From a virus: a DNA stretch of 64,000 nt. The notes beneath the pieces were generated by a model. The model was not told the DNA's origin, made no database searches, and saw only the letters and a list, made by a program, of their open reading frames with translations. The translations under genes and the position numbers were made by a program. Of this stretch, positions 24,909 through 62,658 are shown piece by piece. The number at the start of each line of letters is the position of its first letter. Positions within the stretch are counted from its first letter, which is position 1. The stretch covers positions 62,001 through 126,000 of IMG/VR virus record IMGVR_UViG_3300020438_004021, one strand, 5' to 3'.

Positions 24909-26441
24909 TCAGGCGATAATTGGGAAGGGTTTGAGGAATGAAGGGTCTTGTAATACCATAGGTGGTGCTGTGAAGGTATTATTCTCGTTGTTAATGAAGG
25001 TGTTGACGCTATTTGAAGATGGAGCGGGTGGACCAACAAAACTTGGTTGGTTGGCATAACCTTGTGTAGCATCTGCTTTCTGTTGTTGATCTCTAAGGTC
25101 CGTCCCACTTTGGGCGGGTCTCCTAGCGGCTAGCATCGCTTCTCTTTCGGCCCTCATTGAATCTCTTGCTGCTTTTCTAAGTTGCCTTTCTTTCTCTCTT
25201 GCTTGCTTTCTAGCCTCCATCTCCTCTAGTTGTTGCTTCTCTAGATCAGCATCTTCTTTTTCCAATCTTGCTGTTCTCTCTTTTCTGATCCTTCTCAACT
25301 CATCCAGACCAGCCTGTTGTTCTGCAGCAAAATCGTCTCCTACTAAGAAGTCTCCTAGGGTGGTTGAGTTAATGTAGTTAGTAATTCCGACTTGAATTTC
25401 TGCTATTTTCTCTACTAAGAAATAACCGAAATCCATGAAGAGTCTACCGAACCCCTTGGCGAATCCTATTAATGTGTTCCCCACTGCAACACCCAGTTCA
25501 AATATTACTGAACCGATTGTCTTACCTAAGTCGACCACGAAATCCAGCATGTTCCCAATCAGACCTGACTCGCCTTCTCCAGAGAACCAGCTTATCACAC
25601 CGTCTATCATATCTCTGATTGCGTTAGGTAACGTGAACTGGAAGAAGAATGATAGATTATCTCCAAGGATTCCTATATAGTAGGGTACATTGGTGGCAAT
25701 CCAGTCTATCGCCATTCCACCATACTCAACTATGCCGTTTAAGATTCTACTCATATTCTCTTGGAATCCAGCCCTTATGTCAATCAGACCAAATGTAAGA
25801 GAAGAGACGAAACCGTCTAAGAATGCTAGAAGTACTTCAGATATAGTACCTCCTGACTCATATTCACGGAAGGCTGCTATTCCACCCTCGATTGCACCTA
25901 TTAGTAGTGTCAGAGGGAAGAATACCTTACCAAATATCTTGCCAACGGTCTTGAACACACCCAACACTTTGCCAAATATTGGGAATACAGCAGTTAATCC
26001 TGCTACCAGTTTACCAGGTCCCTTTATTATCTTACCTATGAAACCAAATATCTGACTGAATACAGGAATCTTATTGCCTATCTGCGTGATTAGACCAATC
26101 ACTTTAGCAATACCAGGAACCTTCATGAATGCACCTATCGCTGGACCCACGAATCCGGCAATTAGTGCTGCACCCATTGCAGGCAGTGCTAGCAGTGCGG
26201 CTGCTATCCCCTTAGCAAGTGTGCTCGGTTTCACTTTCATCATACTCTTAGGGGCAGACAAGATACCTGTCATCTTGGAAAAGAGACTGGAGAAGAAAGC
26301 ATTTTGCTCTCTTTGATTTTCTTTGTCTTTGAGCTTATCTTCTTTGCCTTGTTCCTTAATGGCATCTGTTACCTCGGCGTTCCCTTTTTGGATCGCCCAA
26401 GCAAGTTTCATTACTTCTGATTTTAAGCCTTTTTCTGCCAT
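24909..26441 (-). CDS. Tape-measure / tail length protein (gp29-like)
   Basis: 510 residues. A charged start is followed by many hydrophobic, glycine-rich helices (about 75-360, for example AALLALPAMGAALIAGFVG, VFFPLTLLIGAIEGGI) and a long charged coiled coil (about 385-450, ERTARLEKEDADLEKQQLEE). This is the usual look of a phage tape-measure protein. It lies directly after gp26 and its frameshift extension, exactly where tape-measure genes follow tail-assembly chaperones. It probably fills the baseplate hub and tube and sets tail length; T4 gp29 is 590 residues. Two bases separate its ATG from the upstream stop. Confidence 0.75.
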   Translation of the reverse strand: MAEKGLKSEVMKLAWAIQKGNAEVTDAIKEQGKEDKLKDKENQREQNAFFSSLFSKMTGILSAPKSMMKVKPSTLAKGIAAALLALPAMGAALIAGFVGPAIGAFMKVPGIAKVIGLITQIGNKIPVFSQIFGFIGKIIKGPGKLVAGLTAVFPIFGKVLGVFKTVGKIFGKVFFPLTLLIGAIEGGIAAFREYESGGTISEVLLAFLDGFVSSLTFGLIDIRAGFQENMSRILNGIVEYGGMAIDWIATNVPYYIGILGDNLSFFFQFTLPNAIRDMIDGVISWFSGEGESGLIGNMLDFVVDLGKTIGSVIFELGVAVGNTLIGFAKGFGRLFMDFGYFLVEKIAEIQVGITNYINSTTLGDFLVGDDFAAEQQAGLDELRRIRKERTARLEKEDADLEKQQLEEMEARKQAREKERQLRKAARDSMRAEREAMLAARRPAQSGTDLRDQQQKADATQGYANQPSFVGPPAPSSNSVNTFINNENNTFTAPPMVLQDPSFLKPFPIIA

Positions 26442-26442
26442 T

Positions 26443-26634
26443 TTACATTCCTATTTTGCTTTTCGCTAATCTCTCGTTTTCCTCTTGGATATGATTGCTC
26501 AATAAAGTTATATATATTTGTCTTTCCCAAGGTATCATATTTTCTATCTCTGTAATAGAATACTTATGATGTTGTGCCATTGCAAAATTGGTCTGATAGA
26601 ACCCTATCAAGGTGTCATGGAAAAGACTTACACG
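26443..26634 (-). CDS. -1 frame extension of gp26 (gp51-like; probably made by ribosomal frameshift)
   Basis: 63 codons reached from gp26 by a -1 shift at 26634-26640: RVSLFHDTLIGFYQTNFAMA, then QHHKYSITEIENMIPWERQI, ending AKSKIGM. The block FYQTNFAMAQHHKY...MIPWERQIYITLL looks conserved, but part of it lies upstream of the only internal ATG (26580), and no ATG, GTG or RBS exists before the conserved start; TTG 26607 has no RBS either. Fusion to gp26 by frameshifting is the simplest explanation. The stop lies two bases from the tape-measure ATG. By analogy with lambda G/GT it would be a tail-assembly chaperone. Confidence 0.7.
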   Translation of the reverse strand, partial: RVSLFHDTLIGFYQTNFAMAQHHKYSITEIENMIPWERQIYITLLSNHIQEENERLAKSKIGM

Positions 26635-27338
26635 AAAAAATCCTGAATCGACTCCAACACCAACTCATTTCTGGTATCGCATTTACCACAAGTAAATGAT
26701 GCGTCATGCTTCATTGAAGGCATGGTCTCGAAGAATTTCTGAATCTTCAAAAATTGGTCTTGATTAAGACTTTCAACGAATTCATTTAAGTCTGAGTCTG
26801 AATAATCTTTCGCATTATATACTTTATCGGAGTCATATATCTTATCGATGCAAGAGTTTACCAACCTAACGGGGTCTTTTGTTATGACTTCTCTGGTGGA
26901 TTCATCAATAGTCATTCCGAAGGTAGGATATTTCATAACCACACCTATTTCTTCCGTAAGTTGTATCTTGCTGTCATGATCATCTACCATGTTCATTTTG
27001 ACACTTTCTATGTCTATATTCAGGGTATAATCATTTTTGCAATTCTTACATGGCATCACTACCTTGATGGTCTCACCTATAGACTTAGCCCTAAGGTTGA
27101 GGAATAGGTATTCTACATCAAAAGTGGGTAGGTCTTTAACCCTAGTACCATCTCTGAAGTCTACACAGTCTTCTAATATGCTACTAATCGCATTGGTCAT
27201 CTGACTTTCATTGCCAGACTCCACTGCCATCAGCAGGATTTTCTCTTCTTTCACCAGAAACGGTCTATACTTTACTTCCATATTATTAGATGGTAGTTTC
27301 AAAGTATATTCTGGTGTTGCTAGTTTAGGTAATGCCAT
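26628..27338 (-). CDS. 26: gp26 baseplate hub assembly protein
   Basis: 236 residues. Matches the T4 gp26-type (T4_baseplate) family: start MALPKLATPEYTLKLPSNN, RPFLVKEEKILLMAVESGNE, PTFDVEYLFLNLRAKSIGE and two CxxC pairs, PCKNCKN and CGKCDTRNE, that probably bind zinc. The zero frame ends GAT TTT TTC GTG TAA, with the slippery heptamer T TTT TTC three codons before the stop. The gene precedes the tape-measure gene. It assembles the central baseplate hub; with the frameshift extension it may also serve as a tape-measure chaperone. Confidence 0.85.
   Translation of the reverse strand: MALPKLATPEYTLKLPSNNMEVKYRPFLVKEEKILLMAVESGNESQMTNAISSILEDCVDFRDGTRVKDLPTFDVEYLFLNLRAKSIGETIKVVMPCKNCKNDYTLNIDIESVKMNMVDDHDSKIQLTEEIGVVMKYPTFGMTIDESTREVITKDPVRLVNSCIDKIYDSDKVYNAKDYSDSDLNEFVESLNQDQFLKIQKFFETMPSMKHDASFTCGKCDTRNELVLESIQDFFV
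26634..26640 (-). promoter_or_regulatory. Slippery heptamer T_TTT_TTC for -1 frameshift
   Basis: On the minus strand, GA[T TTT TTC] GTG TAA in the gp26 frame. Both Phe tRNAs can re-pair after slipping one base back, and the next codons CGT GTA AGT CTT open the downstream 63-codon frame. Confidence 0.7.
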
Positions 27339-27364: not shown

Positions 27365-28120
27365 TCACGAGAACCAATTACTGAAGTTGCCAAGATTCAC
27401 CTTGGTAACCTTCTTATTCACCACTGCTCCAGCGTCTGCGAATCTCTCTATGACCTGAGAGTAGTTAAACGGATTTCCATATTTTCCACCCAATATTCCG
27501 ACATCATTTATGAGAGAGCCTGCGCTGTCATCAAATTCTCTCACCGCATCTATGTCATATAAGAACTCTTCTGCAACTGCCAAACCGAAGTTTACAATCG
27601 TGGGCACATACCTTCTGAATGAGAGTGTCATTGTCTGTTGGGCAACTTCGTTGCCCCCCTGATTGGTGAACTCCACTTCTGATACTGCTTTAGGGAACAC
27701 TTCTTCTAGTCGTATCCTATATATCGGCATGTCGAATTCGTTGAGAACGTACATGAACATGTCACAGGTATAATCTTTGTAATATCCTAGCCTCCCAGTT
27801 ATTGGGTCGACTATTGTATCTTGCCAAGTTTCAAATATTCTTCTTTCCCATAAGTCCTTAGCGAGGTAGAAAGATAAGTTCACCTCACCCGAATATAGCG
27901 GTTCATAGGGAATCTCCCTTTGGGGACCGGATGAGTTCCTGTCTGGTGTAGTTGCTATCGATCTACCCGGCAAGGTCATCGAAGTACACATTAGACTCAG
28001 CCTGTTTCCTAGTGCTAAGTCAGCAATACCTAATATACCCGAGAATTCTATTAGATACTTGTTAGGTGCAAAAACACCGAACTTTTTAATATTTGCTATC
28101 ATTCTGTCTATTCTTGGCAT
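27365..28120 (-). CDS. Tail-tube-fold baseplate protein, gp54-like
   Basis: 251 residues. NKYLIEFSG, then CTSMTLPGRSIATTPDRNSS, then SGEVNLSFYLAKDLWERRIF...DPITGRLGYY follows the gp19/gp54 tail-tube fold (NxxxVxF ... CxSVxLPGR ... YxPLxxxFxxD ... Wxxxxxx-DPxTG). T4 gp54 starts the tail tube on the baseplate. A short tube gene between gp2/gp4-like genes and gp26 fits that role, but another tube-like baseplate protein is possible. Two late promoters lie just upstream. Confidence 0.72.
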   Translation of the reverse strand: MPRIDRMIANIKKFGVFAPNKYLIEFSGILGIADLALGNRLSLMCTSMTLPGRSIATTPDRNSSGPQREIPYEPLYSGEVNLSFYLAKDLWERRIFETWQDTIVDPITGRLGYYKDYTCDMFMYVLNEFDMPIYRIRLEEVFPKAVSEVEFTNQGGNEVAQQTMTLSFRRYVPTIVNFGLAVAEEFLYDIDAVREFDDSAGSLINDVGILGGKYGNPFNYSQVIERFADAGAVVNKKVTKVNLGNFSNWFS

Positions 28121-28133
28121 ATCTACCTCTTTT

Positions 28134-28152
28134 TATTTATATTTTATTTATA
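28134..28152 (-). promoter_or_regulatory. Tandem T4-type late promoters (minus strand)
   Basis: TATTTATA occurs twice on the plus strand, at 28134-28141 and 28145-28152, so the minus strand carries two exact TATAAATA boxes 11 bases apart, 14 and 25 bases before the ATG at 28120. Confidence 0.75.
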
Positions 28153-28748
28153 CTGTCTACCCATACTTTAGTGTCACTAGCACCCACAAAAGATTCTGTT
28201 GGAAGATAAATTGCGGTGGTCCAGTCCGAAGGATTTATGAAAAGCATGTTAGATACTACTCTCTTCCTAAGGTATCTCTTGTAGCATGGTTTGAACCATT
28301 TGAATCTTCTACCTCTGATTAGAATATCATAGGTTACCTTAAATCTGGTGGTCTCATCATATCTATCGTTGTTAGTTATGTCTAAGAGTCTGATTAACAA
28401 CTGCTGCCTGGCAACGTGAGGAAGATAATGCAGGTTGAGGCCATGAATGTATTTTCTGTCCCAGCCTAAAGTTATGACTAGAGGTAGTCTGTCGTAATAA
28501 GGCAGTGTGTTCTTTCCCTTGGGGCTATATGCGAACATATACATCTTGCCAGATTTCCTAGTGGCAGGACCTTCCATTTCACCAAATTCTTTGATACCAA
28601 CTTTACTTTTACCGAAGAGTTCCCCAACTTTATCCCTATACCACTGCCAGGACGACTTCTGTTGGGGGTCTGCTCCTTGGGAAGGCCTTTTATTATCTAA
28701 TAATGCTAGCGATGTTATCCTAGAAATGGGCGATGGTTTCTTTGCCAT
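28137..28748 (-). CDS. Conserved T4-like protein beside gp4; candidate gp2 DNA-end protector
   Basis: 203 residues. A basic start (MAKKPSPISRITSLALLDNK) is followed by YMFAYSPKGKNTLPYYDRLP, LVITLG and GLNLHYLP, then a very basic helix RRFKWFKPCYKRYLRKR. The block is conserved in marine T4-like phages. In T4, gene 2 is next to gene 4, and gp2 protects the packaged DNA ends, so the position and basic character suggest gp2. I am not certain; it could be a different head/tail joining protein. Shares its ATG region with the gp4 stop. Confidence 0.6.
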   Translation of the reverse strand: MAKKPSPISRITSLALLDNKRPSQGADPQQKSSWQWYRDKVGELFGKSKVGIKEFGEMEGPATRKSGKMYMFAYSPKGKNTLPYYDRLPLVITLGWDRKYIHGLNLHYLPHVARQQLLIRLLDITNNDRYDETTRFKVTYDILIRGRRFKWFKPCYKRYLRKRVVSNMLFINPSDWTTAIYLPTESFVGASDTKVWVDSINKI

Positions 28749-29200
28749 TACTTTTTATTTCCCCTCTTGTAAAGGTGGTCTTCTGTCAGTATTTTGAAGT
28801 TCCATCCTTTATTCTCTGCGAATTCTCTAGCCGCTTCCCACTTAGCGGAGTTTACACCCCACCTCATCACTTCGTTGAAATACCTTCTAGTCTTCCTATT
28901 GCCTTTTTTATTCGGTTCCTTACATTGTGCCTTAGGTTTCACCTCTATTAGTGTAACCTCTTTGAAACCTCTCTTGTTTATCGTCTCTACGATGAAATCC
29001 ACATAGTATCTGTGCATCTTATTGTCTTTTGGGGACATATAGGGTATTACCACCTCTTCCGAACCCCAAGAGAGTACAGAATCGTTGTCATCGCAGAATA
29101 CCATGAATCTTCTCTCCCACAGAGAACGATAGATGACCTTGGTCGGGTCTCCTAAATATTTTTTGGGATTCTTCGGTTTGTACTTTCCCTTGTAAGCCAT
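28748..29200 (-). CDS. 4: gp4 head completion protein
   Basis: 150 residues, the same length as T4 gp4. The start MAYKGKYKPKNPKKYLGDPT and the blocks YRSLWERRFMVFCDDND, WGSEEVVIPYMSP, YYVDFIVET, EVTLIEVKPKAQ, WGVNSAKWEAAREFAENKGW and FKILTEDHL follow T4 gp4 line by line. The D...E-V-K pattern (YVDFIV; LIEVKPK) is that of a nuclease-like fold. Completes the filled head before tail joining. First gene of the minus-strand tail group. Confidence 0.93.
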   Translation of the reverse strand: MAYKGKYKPKNPKKYLGDPTKVIYRSLWERRFMVFCDDNDSVLSWGSEEVVIPYMSPKDNKMHRYYVDFIVETINKRGFKEVTLIEVKPKAQCKEPNKKGNRKTRRYFNEVMRWGVNSAKWEAAREFAENKGWNFKILTEDHLYKRGNKK

Positions 29201-60819: not shown

Positions 60820-62658
60820 ATGGCATTTCAAGTAAGCCCCGGCGTGGTCGTCAAAGAAGAAGACCTAACAAGTCTGATTCCTGCAGTATCTTCAACTATT
60901 GCCGGTTTCTGCGGTCACTTCCATTGGGGACCAGCAAACGAAATCATTACCGTGGACAGCGAAAATGAGCTAGTCCAACTATTTGGTCCTCCTGCAGACG
61001 ACAACTTTAAAGAATGGTTCACCGCTGCTAACTTCCTTGGTTATGGTAACAACCTTAAATTGGTTCGAACCATAGACCAGGCAGCTGGAAAGGCCGCTAA
61101 CGCATCTGGTCCATCTGGTCCTGGTGCGGTAACTCTCGTCAAAGGTTCAGGCAGTGTATCAGATGCCGCACAAACCACTGGTAGTTCTGGTGGTCAGCAT
61201 TTTATAGGTAAATATCCTGGTGCCAGAGGCAACTCATTGAAGGTCGCAATGTGGGACGGTGGTTATACTACCGGTATTTCAGCAGGTGCTGCCCACACTG
61301 CGGTATCAGCAGGTGCTTATAAAAACTGGACATATGTAGACAATTTCCAAACCAACATGCCATTCACCACTGGTTGGGCTAATAACCTAACTGGAAGTGA
61401 TACTGTTTTCGATGGTGTTAATGTTGCAATCATCGACGAAGACGGCGATTTCACTGGTACTAAGGGAACGGTTCTAGAGGCATTCAACGGTCTTTCTAAG
61501 GCAACAAATGCTAGGAATTCAGATAATACATCCAACTATTATGTGGATGTTATCAACGAGACATCAAAATATGTAAACTCATTGGCACACCCATATGAAG
61601 CAGGTTCATCGCAGGAAAAAGGTGTGGGTGTCTCTGGTGGTTCTCAAAACTGGGGTACGGTCCTTACCACAGCCGGTGGTACTTTCGATGTCATATTCGC
61701 ATCCAATACAGCCGGTTATGAAATAAGTTTAGCCGGTGGTTCTGGTTCTACAAGTGGTACGATATCCTGCACCAAGGGTGGTACAGTTGACTACGGTCTG
61801 TTCTATGATTCAGAGACAGTTGATGTTAGTCTGATTCTAGGTGGACCCGCAGACAACACCCTCGCCGGTGCTCTAGTAGACTTGTGTGATGATAGAAAAG
61901 ACTGTGTTGCATTCCTCTCGCCAGAAGAAGCAGATTGCCTTTCTAATAATACACCACTAGTTGAATCAACTACCGAGACCGCTATATTGGACTTCAGAAA
62001 TACTCAGCTGAACAAGAGCAGTTCTTATGCATTCCTAGACTCTGGTTGGAAATATCATTACGACAGATACAATGATAAGTTCAGATGGGTTCCACTAAAC
62101 GGCGATATTGCCGGTGTAGCCGTTAGGTCTGACGAAGTTGCGGAGACATGGTTCTCCCCAGCAGGTTTCAACCGAGGTCAGGTCCGTGGTGCAATTAAAC
62201 TCGCATTCAATCCGAGGAAAGCCCATAGAGACAACTTGTACCAAGATCAAGTCAACCCAGTGGTTTCATTCCCTGGTGAAGGTACGGTCCTCTTCGGAGA
62301 CAAGACACTTCTCGCTAAACCAAGTGCTTTCGATAGACTCAATGTTAGAAGACTCTTCATTGTACTCGAGAAGGCAATCTCTACAGCCTCTAAATACCAG
62401 TTATTTGAGCAGAACGATGAATTCACACGTGCTAACTTCAAGAGCATGATTGAACCATTCCTTAGAGATGTTCAAGCAAGAAGAGGTCTACAAAGCTTCA
62501 AGGTGGTGTGTGACGATACTAATAATACTTCGGCAGTTGTCGATAGAAATGAGTTCGTCGCGGACATTTTCATCAAACCCACCAAGTCCATTAACTTCAT
62601 CACCCTAACGTTCATTGCAACTTCACAGGGTGTTGATTTTACTGAGATTGGTTCTTGA
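60820..62658 (+). CDS. 18: gp18 tail sheath protein
   Basis: 612 residues. MAFQVSPGVVVKEEDLTSLI, PAVSSTIAGFCGHFHWGPAN, ENELVQLFGPP and the C-terminal VAVRSDEVAETWFSPAGFNR, GAIKLAFNPRKAHRDNLYQD, VNPVVSFPGEGTVLFGDKTL are the contractile-sheath signature. The variable middle domain (about 110-340) is Gly/Ser/Thr-rich, as usual for the exposed part. Own late promoter and strong RBS fit the high copy number. Confidence 0.96.
   Translation: MAFQVSPGVVVKEEDLTSLIPAVSSTIAGFCGHFHWGPANEIITVDSENELVQLFGPPADDNFKEWFTAANFLGYGNNLKLVRTIDQAAGKAANASGPSGPGAVTLVKGSGSVSDAAQTTGSSGGQHFIGKYPGARGNSLKVAMWDGGYTTGISAGAAHTAVSAGAYKNWTYVDNFQTNMPFTTGWANNLTGSDTVFDGVNVAIIDEDGDFTGTKGTVLEAFNGLSKATNARNSDNTSNYYVDVINETSKYVNSLAHPYEAGSSQEKGVGVSGGSQNWGTVLTTAGGTFDVIFASNTAGYEISLAGGSGSTSGTISCTKGGTVDYGLFYDSETVDVSLILGGPADNTLAGALVDLCDDRKDCVAFLSPEEADCLSNNTPLVESTTETAILDFRNTQLNKSSSYAFLDSGWKYHYDRYNDKFRWVPLNGDIAGVAVRSDEVAETWFSPAGFNRGQVRGAIKLAFNPRKAHRDNLYQDQVNPVVSFPGEGTVLFGDKTLLAKPSAFDRLNVRRLFIVLEKAISTASKYQLFEQNDEFTRANFKSMIEPFLRDVQARRGLQSFKVVCDDTNNTSAVVDRNEFVADIFIKPTKSINFITLTFIATSQGVDFTEIGS

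Follow-up and report, generated by a model that had tools for sequence, protein, structure and literature searches.

Frameshifting in the tail assembly chaperone genes G/GT of phage lambda is classical, and T4 has been named as the exception to its conservation among long-tailed phages (PMC5009743). In the PRFect paper, it was stated that some T4-like phages have a short gene and a fused long gene in place of frameshifting (PMC10885494). The chaperone genes of T4-like phages, with TAC-N and TAC-NC of T4, were identified by Vladimirov et al. (2022, Virology 566:9), to whom poly-T −1 signals in these genes are credited in a later paper (PMC12846349). The preliminary description regarded such an arrangement as one seldom described for T4-like phages, a view that these two sources have overtaken. 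Both the chaperones of T4-like phages and the poly-T frameshift signals in them are already known, and the frameshift system is not a new kind; what is added here is a Shine-Dalgarno (SD)-like bias upstream of the slip site, excess folding past it and a contrast in copy number.

The window, i.e., the whole stretch of DNA that was analysed, comprises 64,000 nucleotides (positions 62,001 to 126,000 of IMG/VR record IMGVR_UViG_3300020438_004021). Judged from its sequence, one gp26 gene in this marine T4-like phage very probably yields both forms of the chaperone by programmed −1 frameshift. The features of the locus are as follows.

29200..28748, minus strand: head closure protein (gp4-like)
28748..28137, minus strand: DNA end protector
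28120..27365, minus strand: tail tube protein (gp19/gp54-like), directly upstream of gp26; phrog_45, E 1.6e-35
27338..26628, minus strand: gp26 ORF, short tail assembly chaperone (TAC-N), 236 aa; PF12322, E 3.3e-66; phrog_150, E 3.6e-71
26652..26655, minus strand: partial Shine-Dalgarno-like GGAG, 11 nt upstream of the heptamer, possible stimulator suggested by a GAG bias
26640..26634, minus strand: slippery heptamer T_TTT_TTC, 0-frame codons GAT TTT TTC, read from the sequence; T_TTT_TTN in 118/135 distinct related loci
26628..26630, minus strand: gp26 0-frame stop TAA, one codon past the slip site, read from the sequence
26443..26640, minus strand: −1 extension (FF + 63 codons + stop), predicted C-terminal part of the long chaperone (TAC-NC); open in 118/118 loci; pN/pS 0.22 ahead of the conserved Met; T4 gp51 match
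26618..26627, minus strand: candidate stimulatory stem, 5' arm GTCTTTTCCA, 6 nt past the heptamer, from folding; not conserved in one register
26520..26529, minus strand: candidate stimulatory stem, 3' arm TGGGAAAGAC, from folding; not conserved in one register
26441..24909, minus strand: tape-measure candidate, 510 aa, directly downstream; phrog_28 (tail length tape measure), E 7.2e-6, and position

The match of the window gp26 to PF12322 (T4_baseplate) scored 223.6 bits, against a curated cut-off of 24.5. On the minus strand the gene ends CAG GAT TTT TTC GTG TAA. A −1 slip on T_TTT_TTC retains FF and continues RVSLFHDTLIGFYQTNF..., the whole −1 translation being FF-RVSLFHDTLIGFYQTNFAMAQHHKYSITEIENMIPWERQIYITLLSNHIQEENERLAKSKIGM with its stop codon at 26445..26443, and the predicted fusion has 298 aa. 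The tail stops 1 base upstream of the ATG of the tape-measure candidate. The preliminary description had reported the GAT TTT TTC GTG TAA ending with its heptamer, the opening of a 63-codon extension by a −1 shift and the running of this extension into the tape-measure start, and all three readings held, with the heptamer at 26640..26634, 63 codons after FF, the tail stop at 26443 and the tape-measure candidate beginning at 26441. The window contains 6 copies of TTTTTTC where 12.8 would be expected, and in window ORFs of at least 100 codons the gp26 site is the only one in T_TTT_TTC phase; hence, the gp26 heptamer goes beyond chance. The scarcity of TTTTTTC in the whole window perhaps reflects avoidance of slippery sites.

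The gene and its −1 tail sit between the tail tube gene and the tape-measure candidate, as in lambda G/GT-type pairs. At 510 aa, the tape-measure candidate (24909-26441, minus strand) falls far short of the 1548-aa gene at the equivalent place in Syn19. The head closure protein (28748-29200, minus strand) matches a TnsA-like endonuclease domain (E 1.5e-22).

The comparison set comprised 135 distinct sites, drawn from viral contigs and from named phages. When gp26 junctions were aligned, as the preliminary description had proposed, both the heptamer and the stretch of −1 frame that precedes any Met proved conserved across divergent relatives. T_TTT_TTN stands in reading phase at the end of gp26 in 118 of the 135 (91 TTC, 26 TTT and 1 TTG), and the −1 tail, 58 to 71 codons long, is open in every one of these 118. 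Such loci occur in Kyanoviridae, in Straboviridae (Aeh1, S13, Asswx_1) and in Pseudomonas pf16, Stenotrophomonas BUCT608, Rhizobium P10VF and Vibrio K566. The 0-frame stop follows the slip codons by 0-1 codons in 99/119 scored loci. Among 48 representatives with pairwise identities below 75%, the codon ahead of TTT TTN ends in T in all 48, though its amino acid differs (D, S, N, A or T; codons GAT, AGT, AAT, TCT, GCT and ACT), against a background T-ending rate of 61% for those amino acids, taken from upstream codon use. The naive chance of an always-T codon is about 5e-11, a value to be read with the related loci being not fully independent.

The 17 loci without a canonical heptamer are T4, which has two genes, 15 Ackermannviridae and Vibrio phage K474. 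Related phages without the heptamer, or with a proper start codon for the tail, had been named beforehand as what would speak against frameshifting; none were found except the Ackermannviridae and K474, which keep the tail without a canonical heptamer and count against the frameshift reading. In the Ackermannviridae (L082, L183-L200), gp26 ends ATT TTC ATT TAA and is followed by a −1 frame tail with an MPWH motif and no obvious start. In Vibrio phage K474 (L089:2209-2405), ATG codons overlap the gp26 stop as a possible tail start, and re-initiation may have replaced frameshifting there; the viral contigs scanned with the K474 protein gave no matches.

The K474 arrangement also bears on the idea that the tail is a small protein in its own right (45-61 aa; called gp51 or hypothetical in cyanophage annotations), translated either from a start codon of its own or by ribosomes that re-initiate past the stop of gp26. 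Public records annotate it in this manner: none of 13 public records with the heptamer gives a joined gene, the tail being a separate small gene in 10 and omitted in 3. However, it is only in the −1 frame that the tail section ahead of a conserved Met shows purifying selection, with a pN/pS of 0.22 vs 1.13 and 1.50 in the other frames and no stops vs 165 and 188 (46 separate pairs). No ATG, GTG or TTG precedes the conserved Met in 69/118 tails. An SD-like motif was found ahead of 4 of 111 conserved Mets and 1 of 46 earlier start-type codons, and ahead of gp26 genes in 84/118, in agreement with the earlier statement that the N-terminal part of the tail has no start codon with a ribosome-binding site of its own. 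In the window, the earliest potential start within the tail is a TTG at 26610, with no SD-like sequence ahead. A separate protein would also leave the phase of the heptamer unexplained, and T4 gp51 is itself a fusion. A separate small protein is thus very improbable, and for the tail in those 13 records the best reading is that it forms the C-terminal end of a protein made by frameshifting.

Signals that may stimulate slipping were found on both sides of the heptamer. In the 48 representatives, the Glu five codons ahead of the slip Phe is encoded by GAG in 18/27 cases vs a background of 24%, and the Gly next after that Glu by GGG in 19/112 vs 3% across the 118 loci. These biases yield a GGAGGG-like motif about 9 nt upstream of the slip site, of which the window has only GGAG. 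The dnaX frameshift site has a comparable upstream Shine-Dalgarno-like motif, and a stimulatory role may be suggested for the one seen here. Relative to synonymous shuffles, the first 90 nt past the heptamer show stronger folding (mean z −1.91, standard error 0.21); the control values are −0.1 to −0.8 within gp26 and −0.2 farther downstream. The candidate stem of the window has 10 pairs, GTCTTTTCCA with TGGGAAAGAC (z −3.9 over 120 nt; duplex P 0.025), and a comparable stem at P<0.05 was observed in 19/48 representatives, with arms that vary by lineage. RNAalifold, applied to 23 aligned sites, produced no consensus downstream structure, and a scan for a single helix register with covariation across sites gave nothing clear; both results count against the frameshift reading, and with no clear single register showing covariation, the downstream stem is only a candidate.

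Transcriptional slippage on the T run, in place of ribosomal slipping, might draw on the run of 6 Ts in the window and up to 8 in some relatives, but six Ts are short for polymerase slippage, the run is exactly T6C in 91/119 scored loci (T6G in one) with the X_XXX_YYZ phase kept, and the upstream SD bias and downstream folding suit ribosomal slipping, so that this origin of the −1 product is likewise very improbable.

An AlphaFold2 model of gp26 built from 41 sequences was confident, with a pLDDT of 92.3. The best solved match of residues 1-87 was the HK97 tail assembly chaperone 2ob9 (Z 7.5 over 81 residues, rmsd 3.9; Foldseek E 0.32, prob 0.85). RBSTP2171 and YqbN, which we take to be phage chaperone relatives, ranked next. 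The HK97-like match of the model supports membership of the chaperone family without proving it, as a Z below 8 can reflect a common arrangement. The −1 tail alone was predicted as three helices (pLDDT 77.9). Searches of gp26 against PDB chains gave no sequence match, and against NCBIfam no meaningful one. The window gp26 (26628-27338, minus strand) contains two CxxC pairs (CKNC and CGKC), a likely zinc ribbon; these are missing from many aligned relatives, and T4 gp26 has CPEC.

In T4, gp26 (208 aa) and gp51 (249 aa) both match PF12322. The gp26 profile phrog_150 spans the tail too, and T4 gp51 matches it through the tail; the −1 tail alignment matches T4 gp51 residues 200-244 (E 8.9e-5), with FYQxN and MIPxER shared. 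T4 gp51 is the long form, with the tail fused in frame, and T4 gp26 the short form. The family search yielded one PF12322 gene per genome where there is no second gene of the gp51 type (15 named genomes: 13 that carry the heptamer, together with Vibrio K474 and Klebsiella Menlow) and two per genome where gp26 and gp51 occur together (five genomes: T4, PM2, 44RR, KP-21068 and MD-2021a). The window's own 136-kb record, possibly a fragment, holds one. In a tree of the family, a single branch sets each of the three groups (gp26, gp51 and frameshift genes) apart from the rest, with moderate support for the gp26 and frameshift groups. The tree fits one switch between the frameshift and two-gene ways, in a direction that hinges on the root. 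There is about an even chance that frameshifting is ancestral in the whole T4-like supergroup, driven by an internal SD-like stimulator and by lineage-specific long-range stems beginning about 6 nt past the heptamer, and that in T4 and its nearest relatives a gene duplication, giving gp26 and an in-frame fused gp51, took its place.

Overall, the reading as a lambda G/GT-type (TAC-N/TAC-NC) pair, first put forward in the preliminary description, whose testable predictions were all borne out, is supported by the conserved heptamer and its phase, the startless −1 tail, the gene order, the similarity in fold and the in-frame fusion of T4 gp51, and short and long chaperone forms are almost certainly derived from one gene, as far as sequence can tell. 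From these features we infer that slipping occurs, at a rate at which most ribosomes would stop at the TAA one codon past T_TTT_TTC and release the 236-aa TAC-N. A minority would slip back one base, the tRNAs on TTT and TTC re-pairing on TTT TTT, and would continue in the −1 frame to give the 298-aa TAC-NC. By analogy with lambda G/GT, many short and few long forms would coat the tape-measure protein, and the C-terminal part of TAC-NC would recruit tail-tube subunits. Chaperone frameshifting appears to be the rule among the sampled T4-like relatives, in contrast to the earlier "except T4" of PMC5009743. One frameshifted gene as against two duplicated genes offers a natural experiment on how phages fix the proportions in which two tail assembly proteins are made.

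Among known systems, the locus resembles lambda G/GT and P2 E/E' in having a short ORF with a −1 heptamer near its end and a startless extension, directly before the tape measure, with short and long forms predicted. It differs from lambda in its slip site (T_TTT_TTC; that of lambda is G_GGA_AAG), its family (PF12322) and its stop one codon past the slip site. With T4 gp26/gp51 it shares the family PF12322 and the C-terminal tail on the long form, whereas T4 has two separate genes on opposite strands and no frameshift, and the window record has one gene. The chaperone locus of Vandenendeviridae and Andersonviridae is similar in that it, too, encodes a chaperone of myophages, carries a poly-T −1 signal and has, ahead of the tape measure, a −1 tail left out of the annotation, but it belongs to other phage families and its motif is given as GTTTTT (PMC12846349).
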